Origin: Pezizomycotina sp. ARF18
Taxonomy: Eukaryota > Ascomycota
Assembly: GCA_002224055.1 (NCBI GenBank)
Contig: AZLU01000010.1
Coordinates: forward strand, 41,457-105,456
DNA: 64,000 nucleotides
Direction of reading: 5' to 3'
Below, piece by piece: positions 1 through 46,775 of the stretch. Under the pieces are notes generated by a model. It did no database searches. It saw only the letters and a program-made list of their open reading frames with translations, and was not told where the DNA came from. How positions within the stretch are numbered: position 1 is the stretch's first letter; each line of letters begins with the position of its first letter. Position numbers and translations under genes: made by a program.

Positions 1-778
1 ACTCGAAGCCGACCTTGGCGCCGTTGAGGTACTCCTTGGCGAAGCTCTGGAGATCGTCTTGCTGGCGTACTGCTCGAGGTAGCCGGCGAACGGCGAGGAG
101 ACCAGTGTCACCGGTGGTGGGAGGGTGTAGCTCCCTACGTTGTATAGCTTCTTGAGGCAGTCGGGGGTGATGGTGCTATCGCAGCTAGCATCGGTATCGT
201 CCTGGCGCCGCGTGTGTCTCGGAGCAGGGCGGTTTGGGTCTTAATTGCGCCGCGACCGTTTCCGAAAACGACGTAGGGTGGATCATGTTCACGTGCTCGT
301 GCAGGTGCGCGGGGAGACTGTACTTCGTCGTCGAACCTGAGCGCCGTGTTCGTCGTGATCGTAGGTGTGATATTCCGTCTTCAGGAGGTGCTCGGCGGAT
401 TGCACGTCGGTATGGACGTAACCAATCGTGCTCGACCTTCACGTGTGTTCCGAGGCCCAAGACTTAAGCCAGCCAGTACCGCGCTAACAGTCTCGTCTTT
501 AGGGGCGAGCATGGCCTTGACCTCTTCATGCGTCATGTGCTTCCGTACAGCTCGTGGCCCGGTGTAGAGATGTCGATAACCCTCTTCTCGAAGGCGTCCA
601 CATTCTGCTGGGTAAGGTGGAATCTTGAGGGTGATGGGGTGGCGTGGGTTCGTCCTCCTGATTGCCCGCCAGCCGGCTGGCGGTTTAACCTGCTCGAAGG
701 TCGCGTACTGGACATTAGCCGGAAGCGCCAGCGTTGAGGTGGCGGAAGAAAGGAAAGAAGGGCCGTGAAGAAATGCAT
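1..778 (-). CDS. Sedolisin (S53) tripeptidyl-peptidase-like protease, N-terminal part, runs off the window
   Basis: Secreted acid serine protease of the sedolisin family, which removes tripeptides from protein N-termini. The part inside the window is the signal peptide (MHFFTALLSF...), the activation prodomain and the first residues of the mature enzyme. Prodomain signs are HLTQQNVDAFEKRV, HELYGKHMTHEEVKAML, TEYHTYDHDE and TKYSLPAHLHEHVNMIHPT. The mature start reads CDSTITPDCLKKLYNVGSYT, then GYLEQYA and, one frame over, DDLQSFAKEYLNGAKVGFE. The catalytic Ser-Glu-Asp residues would lie beyond base 1. The start at 778 is the ATG preceding the hydrophobic leader. At least four one-base losses break the frame, each fitting a shortened run such as CCC to CC, so a sequence error is as likely as a dead gene. 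Family is confident; completeness cannot be judged. Confidence 0.82.
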
Positions 779-2440
779 CTTGAAATAGCTGTTAGGAGGA
801 TACCGACGAAGCTCTAGACTACGGAACTAGAAATTCTATCCAAGACAGAGCAGGAAGCATCTGGTATTATATAGACTCGAAGGACTGACAGAGGCTTCGA
901 AGGAGGGATATGTCCAGAGCCATACCATTGTGTTTTTCATATCGTAACCACAAATGGATGCTCGCCGGCGTTAATCGATCTCCTCTCTTAGTGCCCCTGT
1001 AACATTGGATACTTCTTCTCTATCTAATCTTGGTCCTCGTGCCTTCGTTGCATAGAAAGGGCTTTCCATTTCGAGACTATCCACTATCGGTGTTACCAGA
1101 TTCTTCTACTCTAACAGTATTGATTACGGTATCGTATTGTCCAATACGCACATATTGAGCTCGCTGGCAGGTTGTAGGTTAACCCTCTCAACCCGTTATC
1201 CTAATGCAGGGGTAAGCTGGTCCATTGCGTCGCACAATAAGCCGGGGGCTGTCTTCCGACCGCTCCACAGAAAGAGGCTGAACTTCCGAAACTGGCGATA
1301 GTCGTTGAGCTCTTTTGGCCGTTAAAGTAGTCTTTACTGGTACTAATACTGGAGTATATTCTCGCCATATACCTAGTCCATTGGCAAATTGACAGCTCTA
1401 ACCAAGGTTGTGAGAAAGTATACGAGCAACCGCTACCGCCGCTGAGAAATCAGTGAGAGAAGCTTTTGCCAAACTCGGCAACAGCCACACCCGTCTTAGG
1501 AAGAGGGAAAGATGGGAGGGACAGGGTATGGTAACAGGGAAGGTACGTCACGGAACATTTTTTTTATTTTGAGCTGTCAAATGCAGTTGGGCGATAAAAT
1601 ACGCTAGCCAATCATTAACAGTCTCTTGCCGACGTAGAATTGTTTAGAGTTTCTACATCTATATCGTGATTTGTTCTCAGTCTGTTGTCACCGCCGGTAT
1701 TTCTGTAAGGTACAGGTGTAAGGTCGCCAAGAGGCGGGAAAGTACTAGGGGGACCTGCAGAGTTAGAGGCTTGGAAGGCTTGCAAGAATAGAAGCTTCCC
1801 TGGATCCATGGATTGTCCATGGCCAAGGACAAATGAGATCTTCACGCAATATTTGGTTGGGAGTTTGTAGATACCATTCACGGAAAGCCGACTAGCTTCC
1901 GCATCGGTATACTCCCCTTTCAACTTTCTGCAAACGCAGATTTAGGCAAACTCCCCGAATCGATAGATAACAGAAATTGTATACACTGCTCTATATAAGA
2001 AGGTTGTACCGTTTATCGTGATGGTTCCTTTCGTATAGTGTTTGTTCATGTATTTCCCGAGGCATAAGCGGGGGTTCGGTGGAGCTATTGGCCCCGCATC
2101 TGCTAGCGCTGCAATTCCCGAACTTCAAGTATCAAACTCGAAGGTGATAAAACTCCTTCCTGGATCTATAGTAGTATGGAAGAGGAATCCCTTGCTTTCC
2201 ATACTGAATCTGAATTACGTGACTGGCAGAAAGAAATAATAGATACTTGCGCTCGGTTTGAGAAGTTGAGCCCTCATACTTCATTCAAACAGATTTCTTC
2301 GGCTTACGTTTTCGTACTTTGGCTAGATAGCTTCAGAATGTTGGATCTGTCACGGTCTCCGGCACCGGCTTAAGTTGTTCGTATCGTAAAATAGGCACCA
2401 ACGGTCTTCAAACGGCAGAAAATCGCCAGTCCGTTATTCT
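779..2440. other. Intergenic, no supported gene
   Basis: Upstream region of the sedolisin gene and beyond. Only short unsupported reading frames occur, for example a 102-codon one at 1615-1923 on the minus strand and two overlapping ones at 2042-2373 on the plus strand; none shows a family motif. No RNA gene or inverted terminal repeat was seen. Confidence 0.5.
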
Positions 2441-2479
2441 CTAGGATCCATGAATAACAAACCACACAAATTACCAATG

Positions 2480-2725
2480 ACACCGCTGAAAAATATCTGG
2501 ACCAGATTTCCGATCCTTGGCGAGACTCCACAGACAGGAAAGTGCTATCTCAGTTTCGTTACATTGAGGCTCAAAGCAAGGAAATACAGACAGGGCAATG
2601 TTTCTCAAGCGTTTATTCTTGGATTCTTGAATATTCGTGATAGGCAATCGAATCTACAAAGGCGGTTTTTGGATACTTTACAAGGCATGGTTCGAAAAAC
2701 CTGGGTGAAAAATGTTCATTTTTGG
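2480..2725 (+). pseudogene. Relic of a fungal NACHT-type NTPase (NLR-like), P-loop region
   Basis: Fungal NLR-like proteins often carry the pattern I-L-x-S-L-R-F ... A-H-x-x-T-F-x-W-I-F ... F-V-x-W-L ... G-F-W-I-x-G-K-A-G-S-G-K-S-T-L-M-K just before and at the Walker A loop of the NACHT domain. Here one frame reads VLSQFRYIEAQSKEIQ ... VYSWIL, and a second frame reads FVIGNRIYKGGFWI then KAWFEKP and a lysine. The order and spacing fit, but the glycines of the P-loop are lost and stops intervene. I see no convincing Walker B or repeat domain downstream to 3.2 kb. This is inference from motif spacing; chance similarity is possible. Confidence 0.35.
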
Positions 2726-4513
2726 CTATTGCCAATCTCTTGAGTAAATGCTTGATTGCACATCGCGCCATTCGGGGAATTTTGAAATCTGAAAGACGAT
2801 AGCTTCGAGTCCAAGGAAGCAAGCAGCGAGCTAGCTACTGGTTATGAGTCTATTGTGATCGTCGTGCGCCATTTCCGACCTTGATCTGGAAACCAACTAT
2901 CTCGATAATCACGAGGGCGTCGAGTACCCCAGCTCACCGCAGAATGTCTCAAACAGCTTTTAGCCCAATTGCTTATCGTAAACGGTTTTGCAAGGGTTTC
3001 CGACCGGGATTATCCTGAATCTAGTATCTACGGTAAAAGAGAGATGTTGGTGTGGGGACGGAATCGTCGTATCCGAAATTCGAAGGTCGAGTAGACCTAA
3101 CATTTATTGTCATTCAAAGCGTCCTTAAATCTCCGTTTCACAAACATAATACTCTCAAATTTTCTTAGGAGTCTCTTCTCATCATGGGATTCGCTCTAAA
3201 ACGAGCGCGCTATGTTGTAGATGCGCTATCCTTGAGAGTCGAGACTACGGCATCTCATTGAGCGAATTTTACTTGTGGTTGCGCCTCAGCGGAATTCGTT
3301 TTTGCAAAAAAAAAAAAAAAAAAAAAAAAAAAATCGTAAATGAGAAAATCATACAATATGAAGCTGTACTGATTATCTGCTGTGGATTACCTGAGCTTAA
3401 CTACGAAATACCAGATTGTTATCTCAAGCTGCATAATGGAAGCAGCAGAAAGTAGGTGGCATGATACTTCCAACAGTAGTCAAGAGAGACTTGAGGATTC
3501 CAACTCTAGAGCTCAATTGATCGTCGCCTCGCTACTTCATTTAGACACGGATCCCTGCACTATTAAGGCGCAGCGTACCGTCAAGTACCATCCGGCTCAA
3601 AAAAAAAAAAAAAAAAAATCTAATCCGAAGTAGAATACGCGCCAATGACAAATACTCACAACTTCGTATTGGTTAAATTCCGGAGACCGGCACGACTGCA
3701 CTCTTGCACACAACAGCGAATTCCACACAAGCCGGAAGCTGGGCTTGGTAGAAAGGGCGAAGACCAGGGTATGAGGGGTAACTATGGTCGGTACGGCATG
3801 TCAACACGGGATTAAAGAGTTTAGACAAACAGCAACATATACTTATAAGTTTAGTGTCATAAATCGGGAGGACTGGTTGTGGATGAAGAAAACTCCAAAT
3901 TTCAAAAGCCTAATCTTGCAATTTTGCTAGTCTAGAACTCTGCGAAGATACTAGTAGTCCCCCTCGAATAGTAAATTCCAAGTTGTCACAGATAAATAGG
4001 ACGCGATAGGGTATTCCCAGTACATATATCTATAAAGCGATATTGATTTTTCTCGGCCAGCTAGCAGCTTTCAACTAGTTACTGATGTCAGTCGATTCGG
4101 CACCTGTCAACCAATAATTCACACGATATTTCCTCTAATGTGGGTCTAATTACGCAAACTAGGCTGCAATACTTCTGAAGACAGTTCAGGACAGCCCGTC
4201 TAGTAGAAAAGTAATTGCGGAAAGGATACTGAAGAAAGAGGAGAAATACTGACTCTTCGTCGTGCACAACTCGAAGCCTACAGATAGCCGTAACAGTTAC
4301 ATCGTTGTGCTATATTGAAGTTGCCAGAAAGGAATGTATTCGTTCAATATATATGATATTATCAGTATCAGTCATCAAAGAATCATGGAAGATATGAACT
4401 AAATAGCAAAGGCAACGTCGTAATAACCCATATAATCGTCAGTTCCCAACCAAATGTTAAAAAAATATCAGGAATAATATATCCATCGATCGTAATATCA
4501 ATCTAAACTGCAT
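2726..4513. other. Intergenic, with two poly-A runs
   Basis: No coding sequence can be supported. The stretch holds a 28-base A run at 3306-3333 and a 20-base A run at 3599-3618. AT-rich in its second half. Confidence 0.5.
3306..3333 (+). repeat. Poly-A homopolymer (28 bases)
   Basis: Uninterrupted run of A. No target-site duplication or upstream element body is recognisable, so it is not assigned to a retroposon. Confidence 0.9.
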
Positions 4514-5225
4514 TTAAATAACTCCAGCCTCATGCCTGCGCATTCCGTACCAACCGAACAGCGAATCAAAGCACGTATCAAAGCGCTTGCAGAATCGCAC
4601 GCCGGTATTGCAGAAGCTAGCGCTGCCAGCAGTCCTCGTATGCGGCGACACCGCCAGATTAGGCCTCACAGCGGCATCAGCCGTCTCCGAATTCCCAATG
4701 GTAAAAGAAAACGCGCTGGCCATTTCCGCGGTATGTCCGGGCGCCGTGCGAGCACCAAGGACAACCTTCAGTACGCCGCCGCTAGCGAGAGCCTTCGGCG
4801 AGTTGGTCCACGTAAGGTGGGATCGCTAGGAACATACAAGAACATGCTGTTGATACCGCTATCGAAGAGAACGTTACCCTGGTGGCACGGAGCTCCGTCG
4901 AGCGAAACACAACCCGGAGCGCGTACCCAATCTCCAGGTACCTTATCGTTCGACTGCAGCTTGATGAACTTGCACTTAGTGTCCGTGTTGAGACCGATCT
5001 TGAGACCTTCCTTGGTGAAGACGTAGCCTTCCACCAGAGGGACTTATTCTTAGTAGCGGCTCCCGCATTTACGGGCGTGCCGTTGATGGAAACGACGTCC
5101 CGGAAGGGGTTCGCCGCTTGCCGAACTGCGGGTTGGAGGTTTCCGAACCTGATACCCATGAATCTCGGCGCGAGCTCGTTCGTGCGCGTCTGGGGCCCGA
5201 TAGCATCAACTTGTCTGTGTCGCAT
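4514..5225 (-). CDS. Unnamed conserved-looking secreted beta-rich protein
   Basis: I do not recognise a named family. Successive pieces in the three minus frames form one plausible protein of about 235 residues: LAPRFMGIRFGN and NPFRDVVSINGTPVNAG; GYVFTKEGLKIGLNTDTKC; KVPGDWVRAPGCVSLDGAPC; GNVLFDSGINSMFLYVP; VLGARTAPG; and a C-terminal stretch with NTGVRF..KRFDTCFDSLFGWYGMR. The Gly/Asn turns, alternating hydrophobics and the D-S-G-I motif followed by a late N-T-G motif suggest a secreted beta-barrel or protease-like fold, but no catalytic pair is proven. A start at 5225 gives no signal peptide; an upstream exon (a 5272-5529 frame lies on the same strand) could supply it. Frame changes near 5030 and 4790 again fit single-base losses. 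The overlapping plus-strand frame 4532-5026 is treated as a shadow. Confidence 0.5.
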
Positions 5226-5229
5226 CTTT

Positions 5230-7340
5230 AATCTACCGTAAATAACTCCTTTCCTCTAGATGGTCCACAATCTATTCCATGCGACTATCAATCACGTCGA
5301 TCACGTTGGCGAAAAGCCTAAAGCACCCATGGACAGCCACACTTCCTACTCTTTCATTCCACCCGGCAGCCGCTCTAAAGCCTTGGCTTCGACGAAACCT
5401 GGATCGAGCGCTAGTAACTTTGATTAAAGGATACTTTGATGTTGCATTGAAGCTACGTTCAATAGTATCCCAAAGCCAGATAGAAGTCTCTGGAACAAGC
5501 ATATGATCATCATCAAAGCTGAGAACCATAGCCCCACAAGTTCACAGCAATTCCGAGGTTACAAGCACCTTTAGTTAGCAGTCTCTCGAGCTTCTGGGCA
5601 CCCAGGTCGGCAGTTAATCCCTGCATATTTTATTTTTAAAACTCATGAAGATTCCTTTGGGCCTGTGCTTCTGCATGCAAAGCATGAGCGTTGTGGCTTT
5701 TCAGGCGGCAGTGGAGCTAAACTCATGCACGAACCCACGGTAGAAGTTCCTCGCTTCAAGGGTGACGAAACCCCCGCATAATTATTAGGTGCATGAAACA
5801 TGAGACCTCGTGGGATGGAATTTTAGAATAGAATAATTTCAGCTAAACTAGAACTAGTGGAAAGGTTGCATCAAGGATATAGGTCGATTTCAAACCGTGG
5901 TACCGGCAATAAGGCTTGTTGAGTTGAAATCCTGGTTAGGTGAATGGTCATGATTCAGAGACCTGGTAGACCTACAGGATTAGGATTCTGAAACATCCCC
6001 CCATGGCCCAGTAAACAAATACCGCCGAATAGAACGAAACATTCTTTTGGTCCGACTTGCGGGCTATTCGGACAACTAGATTCCGTCCTTAGGCTTCAAG
6101 AAGGGGTTCTAGAGAGTTATCAATTACCGGTTTCCAATTGTATTATAGCAAGAACCGTCTCTAACTTTTCATGTGAGGTGATTAGTTCTTTTCAGACCCA
6201 GGTCGATACGATCGTACGGCTGAGTAGTCGAAGGCTTGAAAAAGAGTCGAGCTAAACCCACTCAATCCTGAAACACTGCCTCAAACGACCGATTAGCACT
6301 CATATTCATAAAACTTCTATATCATTATGCAATAGATAAATACATCGAAAGATAAGCGTTCTTGACTTTTTATCAACGACGAAGCTATCAATATCCATGT
6401 TGTGCAAGGCATTTTCTCTGTTTATCAACCGGTTGGGGTAGCTCAAAATTTGTCTCCCGAGGTCTCGGAGGAATTGCTCACGCTTCTCTAAAAAAAAAAA
6501 AAAAAAAAAGTAGACAGAGAGAGAGAGGACAGAGAGACAGAGATAAGATGCAAAATCGTCAACCTCGTACGAAAAAACCGAGCTTTTTCGTGAAACCGTG
6601 CACCTGGGAACCTGGTCGAGAGCTAATCAGGCAATACCAGGTGTCCCCGCCCAGTACCAAACCCACACTTAGTAGTTTAAAGATAGAGACAAAGCATCTT
6701 ACGGGCACGATCCCGAATATATGATAGATTCCGCGATCGGCGTTATATATTGAGACTTTATCAATAAGACACCCTGAAGTCCAAGTTTCAATATTGAGCT
6801 AGATAGAATTTAGGATGCTCGATGCAATGTCTTGACTCTTCCTAGCCCCCCCCCCCCCCCCCCATAGATGTACGTAATCTAACAAGGAAATAATCAGATC
6901 CTACCAGTAAACAGCTATGGAGCTGATATCAAACGCCAGGAATCATGGTACTAGATGAGCGTATCAGTACGATAGGTAGAGAACGAAGATAGCATATTTC
7001 AAAGCTCGTTCATTAAGCTTACGATCAATAGCATATATCGACGGAGAGAACATCAGTGAATGATTTAGGGAAACAAAAGACTTCTATTGTGAAAACTAGT
7101 TGTTGCCCTGAGTATCTTTATATATCAAAGAACCTTAATAAATGATCTAATTTCCGAATAATGAATAATGTGATCCTAAAAGCCCCGAATAAAAAAAGAA
7201 AAATACACTATCTTGTCCCAGTAAAGAAAAAAAGAAGAAAAAAAGGATAGAGAGACCTGAAGAAAAACAAAGCTTTTCACGAGGTACGCAGTAAATCCCA
7301 CTTCATAGCTGGAATTCACCGGCGAAGCTTCCCCGCACCC
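5230..7340. other. Mostly non-coding, with A- and C-homopolymers
   Basis: A minus-strand open frame of 85 codons (5272-5529) may be an upstream exon of the preceding gene or chance. Otherwise no gene is supported. The stretch holds a 20-base A run at 6490-6509 and an 18-base C run at 6846-6863. Confidence 0.4.
6846..6863 (+). repeat. Poly-C homopolymer (18 bases)
   Basis: Uninterrupted C run in an otherwise AT-rich non-coding stretch. Similar 16-base C runs lie at 10754-10769 and 53034-53049. Confidence 0.9.
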
Positions 7341-7342
7341 CT

Positions 7343-9164
7343 TCACGGAACGCGAGAATTATGGCAGCCAACGCACCGCCAGAGAACACCGGCTCGACGA
7401 TGATGCCGCCGGGCCTCGGGAAGCAAACGCAACGCGCGAACTTCAAACACGCGTCGTCCGCGCCTGCCCCGTCGTGCCACGGGTCCGGGCAGGATACGAG
7501 TTCGCCCTTATGCGAGCACTTGCAACCCTTCGAGCACACGTCATAGTATGGACTCCCGCCGTTGTGGCAGTAAGGCCTGTCGTCCCAGCGGCGGGTGATC
7601 TTCGCGGAGGAGAGTGGTTTTGGCTGAAAAAGCGAGAATTTGTTTTCTGTTAGTACTTGGAAGCTTGAAAGCAGAATATAAGGAGTTTTTTTTTTTTTTT
7701 TTAATGTTACTTACGTTGACCTTGGCGCTTTGATCCTTGAGGGTGCGGTCGGACTGGAGGATTCCTTAATTGGAGATTCATTGACGGAGACCTCTTGGTG
7801 GCACCGCTGATGGGACCGCTAACTTGGGTGGAGCCACCCTGGCCGTTAACTCTGCTACGGCAACCTGTGCACCCGCGGGAGATCGGCTCGGCCGCGATAA
7901 TTCCCGGCCTCGCGAAACAACGGCAGTCCGCGTAGCGGGCGCAATCCTGGTTCGGACCGTCCTCGTTTCCAGGATCCCCGGGACTGCATAGCATGAGTAC
8001 GCCTTGACAGAGCATTTACACTTCGTCTGGCAGTCGCGAAGTAACGGCTTCCGGCGTTGTGGCAGTACGGCCTGTCGTCCCAGCGGCGAGTAAGCTTCGC
8101 GGAGGAGACCGGTTCGGCTAGAAAGTAAGAGTTTTTTTTGTGTTAGTACACCGAAAAAGCACAAGATAGGGGTGGATTTTGGTGTTACTGACGCTGACCT
8201 TCTTGACGCTTTGATCCTTTACGGGGGACCTCTTGGTGGCACCGCTGATGGGACCGCCGACCTGTTGAATAGAGCCACCCTGGCCGCTAACTTTGCTACG
8301 GCAACCTGGGCACCCGCCAGAGCCCGGCTCATCAATGATAATACCAGGCCTCGCGAAGCAATGGCAATCTGCTTCACGGGCACACTCGCCGTTCGCGTTG
8401 TCTATGTCGCGGCCGTCCCCTGGATTGCAGAGCATGAGGTCGCCCCCGACCGAGCACTTGCAATTCTTTTGGCAATCGTGGAAGTAAGGGCTACCGCGTT
8501 GTGGCAGTACGGCTTGTCGTCCCAGCGGCGGCTGACCTTGGTGGGGGAGGCTGGGTTCGGCTGTCAACAGGATTTTGGTATATCAGCACTCGAAATGGTT
8601 CAAGAGAAATGGAACACTGGGCTTTGAAGTACTTACGCTGACCTTCTTGGAGCTTTGATCCTTGCTGGAAGAGTCCTTGACGGAAGACCTCTTGACAGGC
8701 ATCGCAGGGGTCCGCAGGCAGTTGGCCCTGCCAAAGAGGGCGGACTTGGCAGAGAGAACGGTGTCCGGCTGTGCAGGAGACATTGTTAGATGATGGTTGA
8801 GGGGAATGAAGAATTGATCACTGAGTATTGAGGGAGGGTTGGATCCATAAAGTTACGTTGGAGTTGGCCTGCTTGACGGAGTTGGCTTGCTTGATGGCAA
8901 CGGATCCCTTGACCTCCGCAACATTGTTGTGGACGTTTTCAAGTCCATTCGCATTACCAGAAACGATACCCTCTTGGCCCTGGGCATTGGGAACAACGAC
9001 AAGATCCTGAGGGCCGTGTTTGTTAGTAAACTATAGCTCATGGAAGCTGAAAGATTGTATGTTCTTTTGCCCTTACTTACATCGAGATGATCAGTGGGGA
9101 GTGACTGCGCCGCCTGAAGGAGGACGAGCATGCAGATGGTGATGAGAACCTTGAAGGACTTCAT
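7343..9164 (-). CDS. Secreted precursor with three tandem 10-cysteine modules flanked by dibasic (kexin-like) sites
   Basis: Six exons, joined in phase 0: 9164-9081 (signal peptide MKSFKVLITICMLVLLQAAQS), 9006-8857 (Asn/Val-rich linker), 8768-8637, 8560-8193, 8117-7715 and 7622-7343; introns are 74-91 nt with clean GT..AG ends. Each of the last three exons carries one module: RRWDD[RK]PYCHN.GS.Y, then C-x3-C-x-C, two spaced Cys, C-x-C-F-x-RPG, and G-C-x-G-C, ten cysteines in all. Dibasic RR precedes each WDD, and KR lies about 90 residues later (ISGATKR). Exons 3-5 end in a common KDQS..K-V-[SN] motif. Known biology: kexin cuts after KR/RR in the Golgi, so separate disulfide-rich peptides may be released. 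Single-base losses interrupt exons 4-6; exon 4 is 368 nt where 369 would keep phase. As sequenced, the last frame would run on to 7303. No named family recognised; effector or defence peptide is inference. Confidence 0.72.
7686..7702 (+). repeat. Poly-T run inside intron 5 of the cysteine-module gene
   Basis: Seventeen T on the plus strand, so poly-A in the transcribed sense, just inside the donor of the intron between the second and third modules. Confidence 0.8.
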
Positions 9165-12100
9165 CTTTTAAGACGTGACTGATGTCTATGAGGAGATCAG
9201 AAAGGTTAGATGAATGGTCACGAAGAGACGACTCGCGTAACGTCTCGTCAATGTCGCGTAACAGCGTCAAAGAACAAACTCGTCAAAGCTTCGAAGTTAC
9301 GATAACGACTTACCTCAACAAGAATATAAGCTAAAGGACTAGTTATACAGTCTTGTTAACGAGTAGCTTTTACTTAAGTTAGATCTTTTTTTCGTATTAA
9401 AATCGGAGGACGCTTTTTTACGATATATTTTTTTTGGTTGACGATTGAAGGATTTGTTGAGAAGTTTCATTACGAAGTTTTCGTCAGAGCAAATTTTAAT
9501 TTTACAATCGAAATTTTTTTTTTTTCCGTGCTAGGGGAATTTTAATAAACAATTTAGCTACGAATATATTTTTCGGCTCAGATCACGTGTATTAACATTA
9601 ATAAATCGTTAACTATGGTAGAAAGAGCTTTCTATCTTCTATACTTCAATATCGTCTGCTAAAATACTACCATGGAATGTATGGAGGCGAGTTAAACAAC
9701 GTTGTTGAGACAGTTCACCATCAGTCTTGGACGGTTGAGCTTTTACCTGAGAGTCGATGCCATGGCACGGATGAAAAGATATCGCGTCTCTAATAAGTTC
9801 TAGTCTAATTATAACTGGATTTAGAAGTGTGGTATTTTCAATATACACGTTGCATATAAACGATAGAGAAGAACAAACAAATCATATAGTCTAGCTAACT
9901 CCTGTTTCATGCAGGCGCTGCAGTGTCCAGATCATTCTAGTCCTGGCCGGCTTTTCCGTGAACATAACTTATTCTAAAGAAGTAAGGGGAAATCCCGGAA
10001 ACATGGATAGCAAGAATCTATATCAGGCTCACTTACCATCCGGGCCGGGACCGCAACTCAGACGACAAAGTACGGGGCTAATGCCACAGGATGCTCACGA
10101 ATAACAATTCACGACATTCTATAGAAGACTATGCTCATCAAAATCAGAAAATATGACCAGCAACTCCACCGATTCCGTCCCAGAAGACATCAGGTCTTGG
10201 TGTGCCATATACACAGTAGAAATGCGGTGTGAAAAACGGCTTGCGACATTTCGCTCCGACTCCTCCAAAGCTATGTGTCGGAGACGTACAGCAATGCGTA
10301 CATTTCTCCTCTCAGCAACGTTGAACGCCGTCGGTTGCAAAACAGAACGGCATCCAGTACCGGAGCCACTCCTCTTCTGACTTACCTTAATACTATCTCC
10401 GGGCTTGCGGCCTTCGCCTGGTGCATCGCACATCAAACGCCTTGTCGTGCGATTCGGAGTGCTTATGCTTGGATCTGAAATCATCAAGTGCTTGCTGTTT
10501 TGGGACCGTGCTTCAGGACCTCGTGGAGTGTTTGCGGAGGACGCAGCAGGTGCGGCGGAGGTCCAGTGCTCTTCTCGGACATTTAACCTCTTTGCAAAGT
10601 CAGTCTTAGCAAATGATCGAACATGAGGATGATCCAGGTCCGAGCATGAAGAAACGAAGAAGAACCAGCTAGGCGTTGGTAGGATATTTATTACATGACC
10701 AGGGGATTCCTTTTCTTCTGAAATATCTTCTTTGATTGTTTTCTGCAATTCCTCCCCCCCCCCCCCCCCTTTTTTTTTTTTCAGACTCATTTCTTCAACA
10801 GTTTTCTGCGATATTTCGTATTTATTTTATTTATTTTATTTTTTTCCTTTTTAGGCTTCTTTCACCCAGTTCTTCTACAGTATTTCACGATTATTCCATA
10901 CATCTTTTGTTGAAGACGTTCTACGTCGGTTGATACTGTTTTTTTACGGCGGACTATTAATGTATTTTTCTTCCTTAAATATTTTTCTCCAGAGATGTTT
11001 GTAGCTGGAGAAGTTTATTTGCTTTTTTTCTCCTTCCTGTTATATTTCCGTGCACATCCTTCTTCACATTGAGAATCTACGAACGTTAAAAACGTTTTCT
11101 TTTCGATCCCGAATAATTTGTTCATGCCTTTCTACACAAGAATTTTTCCTTTCTGTTCATCAAGGGTTGTTGATGTGTCTTCTTACAAATATTTCCTTTT
11201 CGATCCTTTTGAACTAGTCGATATTTTTTTTACTGCGAATGCTCTTCCAGCAGTTTATGTTGTTCCTTTTCAAAAACTTACATTTGGACGCAAGGGAGTT
11301 CCTGTCCCCTTCTTTCTTCGAAGAATTACAGATAAATAGTCGCCGTCTCGGATTGAGATGCGGATTGCTTGTTAGCATGCGATGGTGCGTTAAGCAATTT
11401 TTATAGAGACAATTCCTGTTCTATCATGTCTCCTTTTCTCGTAACTAATCAGCTTTCTAAATATATCTGTTGAAGGCGAACTTCCCGTGATGATCTATCC
11501 ATTGACGATAAACTGAAATATATGTGAACGATGATAATGTCGTACTACTCAATATAATTATCACGGTGCCATCGCTACAGCCAGCCATGACCTCTATACG
11601 ACAAAACCCGAAAAAATAAATAAACGCCGTCGTCGATAATGACAGCGACAACAGCAGTAAAAATTATAAAAATAACTAAAATAAACGATATCAGTATTTC
11701 CGAATCGCCGTTAAAGCATCCCCGATCTACCTCTCCTTTATACATGCGTAATTCACCCATCTTACACTCGAGTCGCACTATTAACGGTGATAATGCTGCC
11801 GTCTAGTAACGTATACTTCTTACTTTACCTACTGCCACATCCGCTTAATTCATTATCGACGCTGAATGCACAATATTATATATTTTGACGTATATCAAAC
11901 AAGATTTTACATTTATTAAAATATAACTAACCCTTACTAGCGCCACCAGAGGTAATAAGCCGTTAAGTGGAGGGTATACGTTGTTGAAGGGCAGTACCGG
12001 CATTGTCACTAGCACCGTGATTAATTCGAAATTAAGTAGGTCCTTTCAGAATTGGACACCTATAGTTTACTTTATGCCGCATAGCACGACAGAGGTGGTA

Positions 12101-13214
12101 TGTACAAGCTGAATTTTTAAGTAATATGCATCATATACCTTTGAAGTTATTTAATCCATTATACTGTACTCTCACTACTTGTATACTTGCCGCTTTGGCC
12201 TGACGGTCTTTAAATATATATCGAAAATTTTTTCGTGGATCAGAAAGTACCAATATGGTAGTCGGAAATACCGATCGATACCCACATTCAATAAATGCAT
12301 GGAAATATACTAGTATATGTTTAATTTCTTCCGTATTTAATCATTTTGAGCCATTATATATCTCATAGTGTGATTTATTATATATTATAATATATAACCC
12401 AGCGCTCGAAAATTGAGGATACTGAAGCACTCACTATGAGTTTAAACCCTTCCAAATCGTATTTGCTTGCAAAAAGGATTCTATTAACCATGAAGAGTGT
12501 GATATACAATATGCAAACATGTCTGCCCTTTAGATATGAAGACATCAGCTAGCTGTGACTGCGTATCACACTAATAATGCTAATGGCGGGAGGAATAGCG
12601 AAGTTGTTTGTTGAAGGTTCAAGGCTAAATGCTATCGCCAGATACGGAGACATCGCGGGTATGTATTTGCACATGGCGGATCAAGGAGATACGCCAACAC
12701 TCACAATACCTAAAACAATAACAGGAAACGTGCCCATTCATAAAAAAAACCGAGAAATTACATTTCCTTCGCTAATTATGATGGGCTTGCGATACCTTAT
12801 TGCGTTTTTCCTTTTCTTTTTTTTTAAGCGAAGTTATCGTGAGCGGTATGAAGTTATTATACTTCACATGAAATCCACAAAATACGCGTTTAATGACGAT
12901 GAAGAAGTTATCAGGGTTCGCATCCAACAACATCCTTACTCTATATTTAATTCTCTAATTCATTAATACATTACTTCTAAAATCATCTACTTTTGTGGAC
13001 CTAACGACTATGCTACATTGAAACTATAGCAGAAAAATTTGTGGAAAAGCTGTGGTAAACGTTATTAGGTAAAATTATCAAATATCCAAGAAAAAATGAA
13101 GATGCAGGTGAGAACTTCAACCTGAGAATCATTACAGCATGAGGCTTCTCTCAGAGCGGAGAATGCGTCAGTGTACGCCGATAGCTTATATCAGATCACC
13201 CGGCGCCTCGAAGT
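9165..13214. other. Long AT-rich intergenic stretch, no supported gene
   Basis: Only frames without recognisable motifs are open: a 223-codon minus frame at 10119-10790 that starts in a poly-C/poly-T tract, short T-rich plus frames at 10736-11339, and a 129-codon plus frame at 12577-12966 with one hydrophobic stretch. The part from 11.4 to 13.1 kb is strongly AT-rich. A C16-T12 tract lies at 10754-10781. I see no RNA gene. Confidence 0.45.
10754..10781 (+). repeat. C16 followed by T12 homopolymer tract
   Basis: Adjacent runs of 16 C and 12 T. They give rise to artefactual low-complexity reading frames on both strands. Confidence 0.9.
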
Positions 13215-15050
13215 CTACGACTGTAGGCCACCGGTTCCCGTTACCATTAACGCTGCCCCGAACTTCAGATATCCTTCTACCATCGGTTTAGGGACTTTGA
13301 GGATGTCTTTGGAGTCTCCGAACACAAATACGCCCATCATCATCATCACAGAATGCTGAAGTATATGACAGTGCAACATATAGACGCCGGGATCGGTAAC
13401 CCTCACCCTAAAAGCCCTCCATCCAGCATCGGCATTAGGCGTTGTCTTCTCTGCGTACTTGTACAGCATAGTCGTGTCTCTGCGAATCGGTTTGCTCTTA
13501 GCCAATAACTTCTCGTTTTCCTCAGCGTTGTACGTTCCGTTTCCGCTTCCGATATCCCAGTAGTGCTCGCCGTGCATATGGTACGGGTGGACGTCTAATC
13601 CACTATTGTCGCTTCCGGTATTTTGAAGGACAATCTCCAGTACTTCTCCGAGCTTAGCGGGGAACGCTCGCGTTTTATTATCGACACCGCCGTTTGCCAT
13701 CGCTCTATCCCAGTCCGGCAAGAACTGTGTAGAGTTCTCGTACAGGGATACCAAATACGGCTTCCTCGGATCAGCGGACTGCTCTCTTCCCAGCCCACAT
13801 TGTTCTGAGTCCATGTCGTATGCGAATTCACGACCTGATGAACATAAATCGTAACGCGCCTAGTAACCTCCTTCGCCGTCGGAAAATGGTTATCCTCCTT
13901 CAGCGGTTCCAACTTATAATCCAAATACGCCCTATCCGTCGGCGGAAGCTTCATCGGCCTCTCCTCCGGAAAATCCGTCGTACTCAGCGGCTTCGACAAT
14001 TCTACCCCTTACAAGAATCCGTCTTGTATTCGATAATCGCATAACCGGTAGTATTCGCCGCCGCAGCTCTCTCCCTCGTTTCCGCCTGCAAGTAAAACTG
14101 CGCCGTCTCTCCTTCGCGAGCTCCTCGCAGCTCTTTGTCTTCAGCAGCGTACTAAACCTCTGACCAGAACCCATCTGTATAAAAGAAACGCTATACGGCT
14201 TCGTGTAATCGCCGTCGGCTTCGATGACGCTGAGTTCTGGGTGCGATTGTATAGCCATAGAAACGAACGAAATAGCCGTCGCACCGATCCAGCGGAGCCG
14301 ATAAGTTTTTCCGGGGTCGACACTGATGATCGCGGGGCCCTTTGAACTTTCGGCTCCGGGGGTGGGAACGTTCGATACGCCTTTACCGTTGATTAGGAGC
14401 GCGTTGGTCTCGCCGCCGAAGACGAAGGGGAGGCTTTGAGACCTTCTTCCATCTTTTCGTCGGTGGCGTTGTACAGGTCGCCGACGAGGATTGTGCGCTC
14501 GTCGTCGTACGTATACGGCGCTTTGCCGTCTTTCTCGTCGATGATGAGACTGCCGCCAGCGGTTATGGCTTGGAAGCCGACGTGGGAGTGGTAAAAGTAC
14601 GTGCCCGCGTGGCCCTTGGGGAAGCGGACCTGGTAGTCGAAGAAATGCCGGGGCGGGATCGGCCACTGGCTGGCCATCGGCGTTCCGTCGGAAAACGGGA
14701 AGGCTGCCTGACTTAAACCGTGCCAATGCTATAAAAGTTAGTGACAGTTACCAAAAGGGACGATAAGGTCTTACCATGGTCAAGTTCTTTCCATCCATAT
14801 CGTTGTAAACGCGAATCCACTTGGTGTGGCCTTCTTTAAATCTGAGCGCAGGACCAGGATGCGTTCCGTTAACAAGCGTCGAGACCCTCTCGGTACCAGC
14901 CAATGCAATCTTCTCGGAGGTGACCCTGAGGATCTCATCTGGCTGGAAGGATCCACCGTGGGTCGTCAGTGTGGGCGAGCCGCAGCCGCACTTGGCCGAC
15001 GACACGGCAGCGAGTGCCAGGTACGTTAACGTTGATGCTAATCGGCGCAT
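13215..15050 (-). CDS. Multicopper oxidase, ascorbate-oxidase/ferroxidase-like (AA1)
   Basis: Secreted copper oxidase that couples one-electron oxidation of a substrate to reduction of oxygen to water. Signal peptide MRRLASTLTYLALAAVSSA. A 46-nt intron (14729-14774, branch CTAAC) falls just before the first copper motif, giving M|HWHG. Further copper ligands are YFYHSHVG, HPYHMHGEHYW and LHCHILQHSVMM, so all four His motifs and the T1 Cys are present. Length is about 595 residues, usual for the family. The CGCGSPTLTTHGGSF start and the HMHGEHYW motif point to the fungal ascorbate-oxidase branch rather than true laccases; the substrate cannot be read from sequence. Three or four one-base losses split the frame (for example an AAGGAGAG site near 14115 and a GGGG site near 14005). 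Reading across them restores family-like sequence, so a functional gene is likely. Confidence 0.88.
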
Positions 15051-18160: not shown

Positions 18161-20320
18161 TGATGTGGGGTCGCGGTGTTTTCATCAGTGGGGAAAATTT
18201 ACATGTATACATCCTCTATTACCACGAAGAAATAATCAATTGACTGAATTAATTATTTCCCCCCACTTGGCACAAAACAATTCGTCAATAATGTTTCTTC
18301 CCATCTATTCATCCTGCTACAACATTTCTCACCATCGTCATCGTCCTTTTCACGGCCATCGCCATGAATCATCTTCAAGTTCTCAGTTCATCCATATGAT
18401 CCACGAAGGTACTTCGGCTCTTCTTCGTTCTCTCATACCGTGGCTTTGCACTCCTTTGTTTTACACCTGGAAACGGCCTGTTTCGGAGCAGCCACCGCGA
18501 AGCAATTCGCCGCACGGGCGGGCTGGATTACTGGACCTGGCATCATGCAGCTTTTAGCAGAGCGCAAGCCGATTTCGGCTCTTCAATTCAGGTTGGCGAG
18601 GCGGAAGGCGGACACTACCAGAGATGCGCACTGCAAGCTAGCTAGCTACTCTTTAAGGTCAACCCTAGCGACCTTGCAGCTCTCGCAGTTTCGTCGAGTC
18701 AGCATTAGCCTCGCGGACCATAACCACAAAAGGGGATTCGATCGATCGATCATGGCTATCCGCGAGTCAAGGACCCTGACAGCGTCGACCAACTTCTTTT
18801 TCTGCACGACTGCGGCCCCCACTCACATAAGCACACGAGTCCCCAGAGAGCTCCTCTTTTTTGAGCTCGAGAGGGCCGCGCCGGCTTTCTTTGACTCGAT
18901 ATCAATCGCGTATCCCTCAATTGCATACTTGACGAATTAGTCTCATTTGCGTAAATCAATGCCCGTTCAGTCAATTCTTTTCCCGGAGCCGCCTATTTTA
19001 GCGTGGGTCTGCCCTTTTCTGCACTAGCTATTGGGGGTTGGAAACTGCCCAGAATGTCGCTTCCGAATAGGCGCTAATGCAACAGCTCGATGTTATATCA
19101 CCACCGGCAGGCTCGGCAAATTTTCGGAAAATCAATTGACGATTTATCTGGTCACGCCAATAATATCGTCGGCGACCATGACCCACGAGGTTGATAAACT
19201 CGTGGCGCTCAAGTCCCCTCTTTTTACTGAAGGAACGGTTCTGTTCGCATATGAAGCGGGCGAGCTGGAAGGTAGACGTTGGAGGCTTGGTGCCCTTCAG
19301 CCGCAGGAGCTACCATGGCCCCTTTCCCTAGAGATTAAAAATGTGAGACAATCCCATGAAGGTTTTGGAGTTTGGCTAAGCTAACGCGTTTTCCCTTGAA
19401 ACCGGGGCTTCTTTCCGTCCAATAGACCCGCTCTCCGTTGTTGCGATGCTCGAATTACCTTTCGAGCAAACCCCCACCCCTCCAGATATCTTGGGCATCG
19501 GGTGTGCGACTCGAATACTCAAGAGTAGTAGTAGTCTGCTTGTAAGTCTGCTTGTAGCCGCTACTAATCCTATTGAAATTTTTGAACAAGTAGCCGCCAA
19601 AATGTTCTCCTGTTCTAGTTTCAAGGCTCTCACCGAGGAACGAATTTACCGCTATTTGCTTTAGTGGTCGGCATCATAGGTATTTTTGAAAAACACCACA
19701 TGCAGGGCGCGAAAGTGATCGTAACGGTGACCTCAGCATTTCAGCGGTTCAATATTGGTCCGTTTACCGGACTAGTTTCGTGGAGCACGCCAGGCTCAAA
19801 CTTGGGTTCCCTACCCCCGGAAATTCCCCCGGCACTCATACGAAGCTTCTTTTCAACCCCACCGCGTAGGGATCTTGCCTTTCGATATCTTTAGCGTCTT
19901 TTGGAGTTACGGCGGCAGCCCTCTTGCCAAGGCGGCTTTTGTTGGTTGGTAGTTGCTGACACCAACCTCTTCTTAGCCAAGAAGGGGATTCTCCGCCGGG
20001 TCCCCGCTGCAGATTTTATTGGCGGGTTAACCGAATGGTCGGTAACTCTCAGTCACTGACTACTTGCGAAGGGAAGACGAAAACGAAGCAGCTTCATGAG
20101 GACAATCAGTGTTTGTCACACAAGCCAAGGGTCGAAGTACGGTTGCATCCCTCGCTTTCTCAGGAAACCAAACCTGAGGATTATAGCTCAGCCTTGGTTT
20201 CTTGGTAACGGATGTGCAAATGGTCGCGGTGTTTCTTTCAAAGAGTGGAATATATTGATTATTTTGTGTTGGGACCAATTCCTCGGATCTCCCGATGTCG
20301 ATCAGTAGGGCGAGGAAAAA
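18161..20320. other. Non-coding island of balanced base composition
   Basis: GC content is visibly higher than in flanking intergenic DNA, yet no frame shows a fungal gene motif. Open plus frames at 18165-18557, 18440-18940 and 19031-19384 lack introns, domains or convincing partners. The texture (purine-rich blocks, CCCCGGAAATTCCCCC-like words) reminded me of plant-type mitochondrial intergenic DNA. That is impression only. Confidence 0.3.
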
Positions 20321-44405: not shown

Positions 44406-46775
44406 TTATACACCAGACCCTTCGTCCGGTAAGTTCACGCCGTTGTAATACTTCGTCCACTGCTTGCATTGGTTCTGCATGTTACGGTGCAAGGGCGTAT
44501 TCTTGTTGTTCTTGATCTTGTCGGCATCTCGATGAAGTTGAAACCCATGCCGGCGTTGGCGTGCCAGGCGATGTGACAGTGGATAAGCCAAGATCTGTCA
44601 AAGAAATGTTAGCTATAAATCATCAAAAGGATATCGTTTTGGTGCAAGTGAAGGAAGAAACATACCCAGGATTGTCCGTCTGGAAAGCGATCACGAGATA
44701 GCCACCGCGGAAGGGTAGCGACGTCCTGCGCGGCGGGTTATCGAGGTTGAGCTTCAACGTGCTTGCGTCGTAAGAGCTGTTGCTCTGCGCGATGACGGAG
44801 AAATCATGGCCGTGGAGATGGATAGGATGCGGTACCGTCGGGCCATTGACCTTAGTCGGCTCGTTGGATTGCGGCTGCGTGAAATTGTCCAAAATGAGGA
44901 AGTAGTTCCAGTCGCCCTCGTTGTTATCGAGAGTGATAGGTACGTATTCCCTGGGGATAGCCTTGCCCTCATCGATGAGCTTGACGGTGGGTTCAGACCA
45001 GTTCAGCTTGAGCGAAGCGTAGCCGAGAGCCCAGCTGTGCAGCTTCGAGCCGGTATCGTTGATATTTGGCCACGGGAACTGACCAGCTTCAAACTGCGGG
45101 ACCTTGCCATCCTTATCGGCACCGACGCGCTTGCTAACAACGGGACAAGCTTGTTGGCAGGGGGATCCATGCAACCAAAGGTAGTCCTAGTATCGTTGAG
45201 ACTCGGAGGCATCCCTCGGCCACCAGCGTAGCGCAGGATACCAAGGTGGGAGTTTGCAGGAGTAGCACCGCCACCGGGCCGCCAGGGCCGCCCTGGCGCT
45301 TAACGAGCCTGTTTGCTGGGTAAGTAGGCCCATCAGCAGCAATTGGAGCAGCTTCCGGAACAGTTCCGTTAAGTGGGGTTCCAGCAATGACGTTGGAGAG
45401 AGTGGTGAGTTAAGAGTGCAGGGCCGTTGGTGGTTCCTCCGTTCCCGTTGCTGCCGTTGCCATTACCACCAGACGTGGGCGGAGGTCTGAAACCACCGCC
45501 ACCGGTGCACTGGCGCAGGTTGATCCAGAAATTCTTGTTGTCGCAGATATCCGCCTTGGCCTCGAGGATGATTTCGTATCTGAAATGCTTGTTAGCGCTA
45601 TACTCCAAAGTGAACGAAGCATAAGAGCTTAGTCTTACCTCTGTCCAGGTCCAAGTTGATGGTATCAGTCTTGTATGGTTGAATCGCAACAAAGTCATTG
45701 GCAACGACGGTGAAGTCGTGGCCATCGATCCAAAAAGTAAACTGTGTGTCGATGGCCATGCTGATGAGGTGCATCTTGTACTTCTTGCCCTTCTGGATCG
45801 TAACCTCAGTGAGACCACCACGCTCGGGCTTGCACAGCGGATCGGTAGTGGAGCAGTTGTAGATACCCTTGCCGTTAAACAGGACGGAGTCAGAACGCGG
45901 CAGGTTCCTTGGAAGTCCAGCAGACTTTGGGAGAATGCGCTGGCGTGCAGCCAGTCCGTCATGGCAAATGGGCCGAGATCTTCATCGTAATCTGCGCTGG
46001 TAGGACCTCGGATGATGAGCGGCCCGGCGATACCGTCCGGGTATTGCACGGCGAAATGGGAGTGATACCAGGAAGATCCGTATTGACTACGCCAAGAGTT
46101 CAAGTTAATACAACCACGTGACCATGCGTGACCTTTTTTTTATAGGTGGTTGGTTCTGGTGAACTTACGTTGCGACGAACTCGTAAACCTGGGAGGACCC
46201 GGGCATAATGGGCACTGGGTTACTCCCGGAACACCATCCTGGAGGTTAGAGTTAAGTTGCCGTATACCGTGCCAGTGGATCGTGGTGCGTTTCCGTTGTT
46301 CAGTCTGTTAGTGACCTTGACGCGGACCGTGTCACCCCAGTTAACGATAATTGGAGGACCCGGATATTGCCCGTTAACGACCATCGCATCTTTAGCGTAG
46401 CCGTCAGGGTAGATCGTCTTCTGAGAGATAGTCAAATCGAACTGTTTAACCGTTAATACATGTCTATTCCCAAGTAAGACTTTAAAAGGCAAGCTAGGAG
46501 AACCGTACGCATCGAACGACACCTCTTGGCCACTTCTTCTCGTAGTCAGTGTTGATATCGAAACCGTATCCCCACGACCCGCGATTTCCGCAGCTGTTTA
46601 TGTCGCGGTCGAAGGACCATTGCAACCCTGCCTCCAGGAGTTGTCATTGCTGTCGATGTGTGGTGGTAGTAGTACGAGCGAATAACGCGCCTTCGTCCGT
46701 AGTAGGGAGAGCGTGGGAAATGCTGCTCGTAAGCAGTAAAAACGAGAGTTGAAAAGCTAACGAAAGGACCTTCAT
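44406..46775 (-). CDS. Laccase (multicopper oxidase, AA1) with Gly/Asn/Pro-rich insert
   Basis: Secreted phenol oxidase. Signal peptide [20 protein letters not shown]. Conserved laccase features: [92 protein letters not shown] and [12 protein letters not shown], so all four copper motifs are complete. Introns: 46087-46168 (VAT|QYG), 45580-45638 (GQR|YEI) and 44595-44665 (NPG|SWLIHCH), all GT..AG with CTAAC-like branches. C-terminus ends [18 protein letters not shown]. Between cupredoxin domains 2 and 3, after NLRQC, comes an insert of about 60-70 residues ([20 protein letters not shown] and [12 protein letters not shown]) before GILRYAGG. One-base losses break the frame several times. Substrate (melanin, lignin or other phenols) cannot be told. 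Confidence 0.88.

Follow-up and report, generated by a model that had tools for sequence, protein, structure and literature searches.

A candidate secreted precursor with three unnamed ten-cysteine modules between putative Kex2 sites in Pezizomycotina sp. ARF18

A gene with three homologous cysteine-rich modules is located on the minus strand of the 64,000-nucleotide stretch of contig C10 (AZLU01000010.1) of Pezizomycotina sp. ARF18 that was analyzed here (referred to below as the window). It extends from an ATG at position 9164 to position 7343 and consists of six exons (Table 1), separated by five introns of 74, 88, 76, 75 and 91 nt. All of the introns have GT-AG borders, and four of the five contain a CTAAC, with CTGAT in its place in the third. 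The six exons of the first-pass annotation are thus reproduced. Together with the rDNA of the genome, the introns point to a eukaryote. Exon 5 was taken to begin after the TAG acceptor that closes intron 4, and phase 0 of the module exons holds by homology. The anatomy readable in the sequence comprises a hydrophobic, signal-like start encoded by exon 1 (MKSFKVLITICMLVLLQAAQS, read by eye), a pro-region, the three 10-Cys modules, and linkers that hold dibasic sites.

Table 1. Exons of the precursor gene and the two introns between its module exons, in window positions.
Feature	Position	Strand	Length	Content
Exon 1	9081..9164	-	28 codons	Start codon and signal-peptide-like hydrophobic segment (signal judged by eye)
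Exon 2	8857..9006	-	50 codons	Pro-region, without Cys or dibasic pair
Exon 3	8637..8768	-	44 codons	End of pro-region with KR site, then first KDQS linker
Exon 4	8193..8560	-	368 nt	Linker half, RR-W, module 1, ATKR, KDQS linker
Intron 4	8118..8192	-	75 nt	GT-AG
Exon 5	7715..8117	-	403 nt	Linker half, RR-W, module 2, ATKR, KDQS linker
Intron 5	7624..7714	-	91 nt	GT-AG
Exon 6	7343..7623	-	281 nt	Linker half, RR-W, module 3

The three modules share their borders. All of them open with RR-WDD(K/R)PYCHN, modules 1 and 2 close with ATKR-S (hyphens follow the dibasic pairs), and exons 3, 4 and 5 each finish with a KDQS tail, so that the linker peptides recur three times, like the cores. These start, end and tail motifs had been pointed out before and can all be read in the sequence. 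Aligned in-frame pieces are 71% identical between modules 1 and 2, 48% between modules 1 and 3, and 38% between modules 2 and 3. Judged by these identities, the repeat of three modules is far beyond chance. Each module has ten Cys when pieces in different frames are summed: 1+9 in module 1, over two frames; 1+3+6 in module 2, over three frames; and 8 in module 3, to which the second frame of exon 6 adds 2. The proposal that phase-0 exons each encode a 10-Cys domain holds in this summed form, with the phase assigned by homology, but not for a single frame.

A continuous open frame, which the first-pass annotation had silently assumed, is not present, as every module changes frame. None of the lengths of exons 4–6 is a multiple of 3, and at least six frame changes occur in their 1052 nt (∼5.7 per kb). 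One is in exon 4, and one is in exon 6, before the last two Cys; the other four fall in exon 5, at three places inside it and at its start, the last depending on the acceptor chosen. Single frame steps are net minus one, while the step in the exon 5 tail is net plus one or minus two. The last copy had been described as ending after GCVGC; this motif and the stop at 7343 are indeed there, but they are out of frame with the remainder of exon 6, which itself stays open as far as a stop at 7303.

To judge the assembly itself, we used the HSP70 family as a control. Among 38 matches in the genome (46.4 Mb, 408 contigs), 35 were used, forming five gene-like groups on contigs C3, C49, C70, C208 and C303; the remaining three (two on C44, one on C10) were left out. 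All five groups contain frame changes that leave no space for an intron, with a total of 20 in 9.1 kb (6, 6, 3, 2 and 3), two of which are less sure as they derive from pieces overlapping by 145 and 325 nt. Seventeen of the 20 are net minus one. The resulting rate of ∼2.2 per kb is a lower bound, and the spans include introns; a Poisson comparison by hand with the rate in the precursor gene gives ∼0.03. Because five HSP70-type genes are unlikely to be all broken in life, the frame changes in the precursor gene are probably faults of the assembly, with the living gene intact. The frame breaks in the five groups examined also make gene calls on this assembly unreliable.

A decaying gene, with genuine frame changes that affect mainly module 2, would account for their density and for their concentration in exon 5, as well as for a rate above that of the HSP70-type groups. 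Since the rate is higher and four of the six changes are in that exon, partial true decay of module 2 is possible. Decay of the gene as such is nevertheless quite improbable, given that the HSP70-type groups are broken likewise and mostly in the same direction, that the in-frame homologous pieces of the precursor gene are free of stops, and that its splice and branch-like sites are kept. Substitution rates also argue against decay: dN is below dS in all three module pairs (0.21 and 0.61 over 70 codons for modules 1 and 2; 0.51 and 0.99 over 61 codons for modules 1 and 3; 0.69 and 1.15 over 42 codons for modules 2 and 3), the pattern expected if the protein is constrained, although these figures are blurred by sequencing faults.

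The distribution of dibasic pairs suggests how the product of the gene may be processed. In the pieces examined, no dibasic pair is found among 255 core dipeptides, compared to eight among 99 linker dipeptides; the counts omit the final exon 6 piece, the positions where pieces join, and the stretch of the exon 5 tail that was not read. The eight pairs consist of three KR and three RR (exons 3–6) and two KK. The difference (Fisher p = 3e-5) is descriptive only, as the borders were drawn at the dibasic sites themselves. Taken alone, the dibasic-free cores are only mildly unusual, because 873 of 20000 shuffles of the cores also contain no dibasic pair. The placement of the sites is a stronger point for a Kex2-type layout than these statistics: RR-W precedes all three modules, and KR-S follows modules 1 and 2. 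The earlier claim that dibasic sites flank the first two cores is therefore upheld, with all eight pairs of the examined pieces in linkers. Core 1 is 293 nt long and core 2 289 nt, or ∼97 residues, a length that is uncertain through the frame changes. The genome contains one match to the proprotein-convertase P-domain (PF01483), on contig C56.

These features invite comparison with the Kex2-processed repeat proteins (KEPs) of fungi. In a survey of 250 secretomes, KEP motifs of 3–352 aa are reported, with three repeats as the minimum and with large motifs occurring in few repeats (Le Marquer 2019, PMC6339444). The repeats had initially been regarded as far larger than known Kex2-processed ones, which does not agree with motifs that reach 352 aa; by the same figures, both the size and the number of the repeats lie inside the known KEP range. 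The gene further resembles KEPs in a start that looks signal-like by eye and in its three similar pieces between KR/RR sites. It differs in that the modules are 10-Cys domains of ∼97 residues, whereas the commonest motif class in Dikarya KEPs, yeast-like basidiomycetes apart, is 9–24 aa (PMC6339444). The survey counts as KEPs those proteins that yield at least four fragments after KR/RR cutting, at least three of them alike (PMC6339444). When this rule was applied to the sites in the sequence, the three KR and three RR would leave three alike cores and three KDQS linkers, provided that the exons join in frame. A second survey asks for 8 to 100 aa between Kex2 sites and excludes repeats >100 aa (Umemura 2020, PMC7329392); cores 1 and 2 are near this limit, within the uncertainty of their length.

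Among individual repeat precursors, Rep1 and Hum3 of Ustilago maydis likewise have repeats between Kex2 sites (putative in Hum3), but these are amphipathic and 31–55 aa long (PMC4617103), in contrast to the ∼97-residue 10-Cys module. Effectors of the Kex2-processed pro-domain (K2PP) class, which include the FOLD effectors Avr1 and Avr3, share with the precursor a secreted product and a pro-region with a Kex2 site, and Avr1 and Avr3 are cysteine-rich, like the modules (PMC8528282, PMC10942635). As described there, they consist of one mature protein behind a pro-domain. The precursor has three homologous modules, and it was not assigned to this class; no PDB sequence matched the module profile.

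Hydrophobins have a paired CC, unlike the module pieces, in which no CC is found. They also have 8 Cys (PMC10672791), compared to the summed ten per module, and no Pfam hydrophobin family was matched, which together set the gene apart from hydrophobins and polyhydrophobins. The trihydrophobin and pentahydrophobin of Claviceps are nevertheless similar, as each is a single secreted chain with at least three cysteine-rich domains (PMC12375992). The precursor gene joins the two traits, a cysteine-rich multi-domain chain as in polyhydrophobins and repeats between Kex2 sites as in Rep1 and Hum3. By analogy, its product could be secreted in one piece, with linkers that keep the domains apart and basic pairs that are hardly cleaved, if at all. 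Chains of this kind with three to five domains exist, and the same source names cutting of polyhydrophobins by fungal proteases as a future question (PMC12375992). The restriction of dibasic pairs to the linkers in the pieces examined, with RR-W before the modules and KR-S after the first two, makes an uncut chain unlikely.

The signal-like start and the repeats between Kex2 sites are also compatible with a ribosomal peptide precursor of the dikaritin type, with cores that UstYa (DUF3328) proteins would cyclise. Genes for such proteins are found near 22% of the 7878 KEPs of the second survey (Umemura 2020, PMC7329392), and UstYa-type matches do exist in this genome. All four that were found, a lower bound, are on contigs C87 and C96 and none is on C10, an argument against a dikaritin-type cluster. 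When window positions 1–15000 were scanned in six frames with Pfam, only multicopper oxidase and pro-kumamolisin matches were obtained. A dikaritin-type precursor is thus very improbable.

The module was compared with known families, sequences and structures. Pfam searches at E up to 1 returned nothing for six of seven gene pieces; a DUF995 match to the remaining piece (E = 0.17) was rejected, being below the cut-off of that family and partly out of frame. Among PDB sequences, a profile of the three-module alignment had no match (E up to 10). An AlphaFold2 model of the module 3 piece, from three rows, reached a pLDDT of 42.9, which is too low for a fold search. The previous statement that no named family is recognised in the module agrees with these Pfam and PDB results, and as far as the families checked are concerned the module is unnamed. 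Within the genome, module 3 gave five matches at E up to 1 and the module 1 piece three matches at E up to 10, all inside the precursor gene; in this paralog search only the best candidates were scored, and broken frames lower its reach.

Protein searches gave no hit with the open frame containing the module 1 piece (E up to 0.1, 8 candidates), with the three-module alignment (E up to 0.1, 52 candidates), or with a longer query run together with a control (E up to 1, 192 candidates). The control, a 63-residue hydrophobic stretch in an open frame near 54 kb to which Pfam assigns no name either, was also blank. These null results are weak, because the control found nothing either: the collection may be poor in fungi or the control poorly chosen, and absence of the module from other fungi does not follow. 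Six module strings searched in the literature had no occurrence, and among the papers listed on Kex2-cleaved precursors of cysteine-rich tandem or polyprotein type, no title names such a module. NipA of Arthrobotrys flagrans was considered and dropped, as the passages on it (PMC11237121) describe a small cysteine-rich protein but neither tandem repeats nor Kex2 cutting.

The way in which the repeat arose may still be visible in its introns. Introns 4 and 5 are alike (z = 7.7 against shuffles), while the other nine intron pairs give z-values from -0.3 to 5.0, the highest for introns 1 and 5. Since other pairs reach 5.0, composition and common splice signals account for part of this likeness. 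The introns of the linkers stand at matching places between the modules. The repeat unit may thus have arisen through duplication of an exon plus an intron, so that one transcript would encode a small cysteine-rich secreted protein several times over.

Overall, we consider it rather likely that the gene encodes a secreted precursor of the KEP type, with an unnamed module and with reading frames broken by the assembly. It is filed here as a probable KEP-type precursor, its cleavage and function being predicted from the sequence. The precursor would enter the ER, where the disulfides of the modules would form, and a Golgi kexin would then cut after the KR and RR pairs. Of the three disulfide-rich proteins released, the first two would have ∼97 residues and the C-terminal one ∼81, and short Lys/Ser-rich linker peptides would leave the cell along with them. 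Small secreted cysteine-rich fungal proteins generally act outside the cell, and a role there, against a host or a competitor, would be the most likely one for the modules on that ground, though this is a weakly held guess. A broader reading, which we hold only tentatively and regard as doubtful, is that the gene represents an unnamed family of 10-Cys secreted domains that builds poly-domain precursors exon by exon, with kexin freeing both the modules and three possibly active linker peptides. If real, the precursor would be a clear case in which a fungus obtains the same folded cysteine-rich protein several times from one transcript, and in which the introns still record the duplication. As the assembly breaks frames in HSP70-type genes, such precursors could be overlooked or divided by automatic gene calling.

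Two genes for multicopper oxidases are located on the minus strand elsewhere in the window. The first (13218–14734) is laccase-like, with 7zn6 as the best PDB sequence match, and its three Pfam domains are distributed over two frames, through an intron or a fault; in the second (44626–46139), the first and last Pfam domains lie in separate open frames. Part of the activation domain of a pro-kumamolisin (sedolisin peptidase) is present at ∼539–631, also on the minus strand (E = 2.3e-7). Elsewhere in the genome, three UstYa (PF11807) matches within ∼5 kb on contig C87 (88916–94127) may indicate a cyclic peptide cluster. Contig C189 carries rDNA repeats at 18998–62479, with 5.8S matches ∼10.87 kb apart; the distance from the second to the third is double, where one copy seems to miss the exact pattern.
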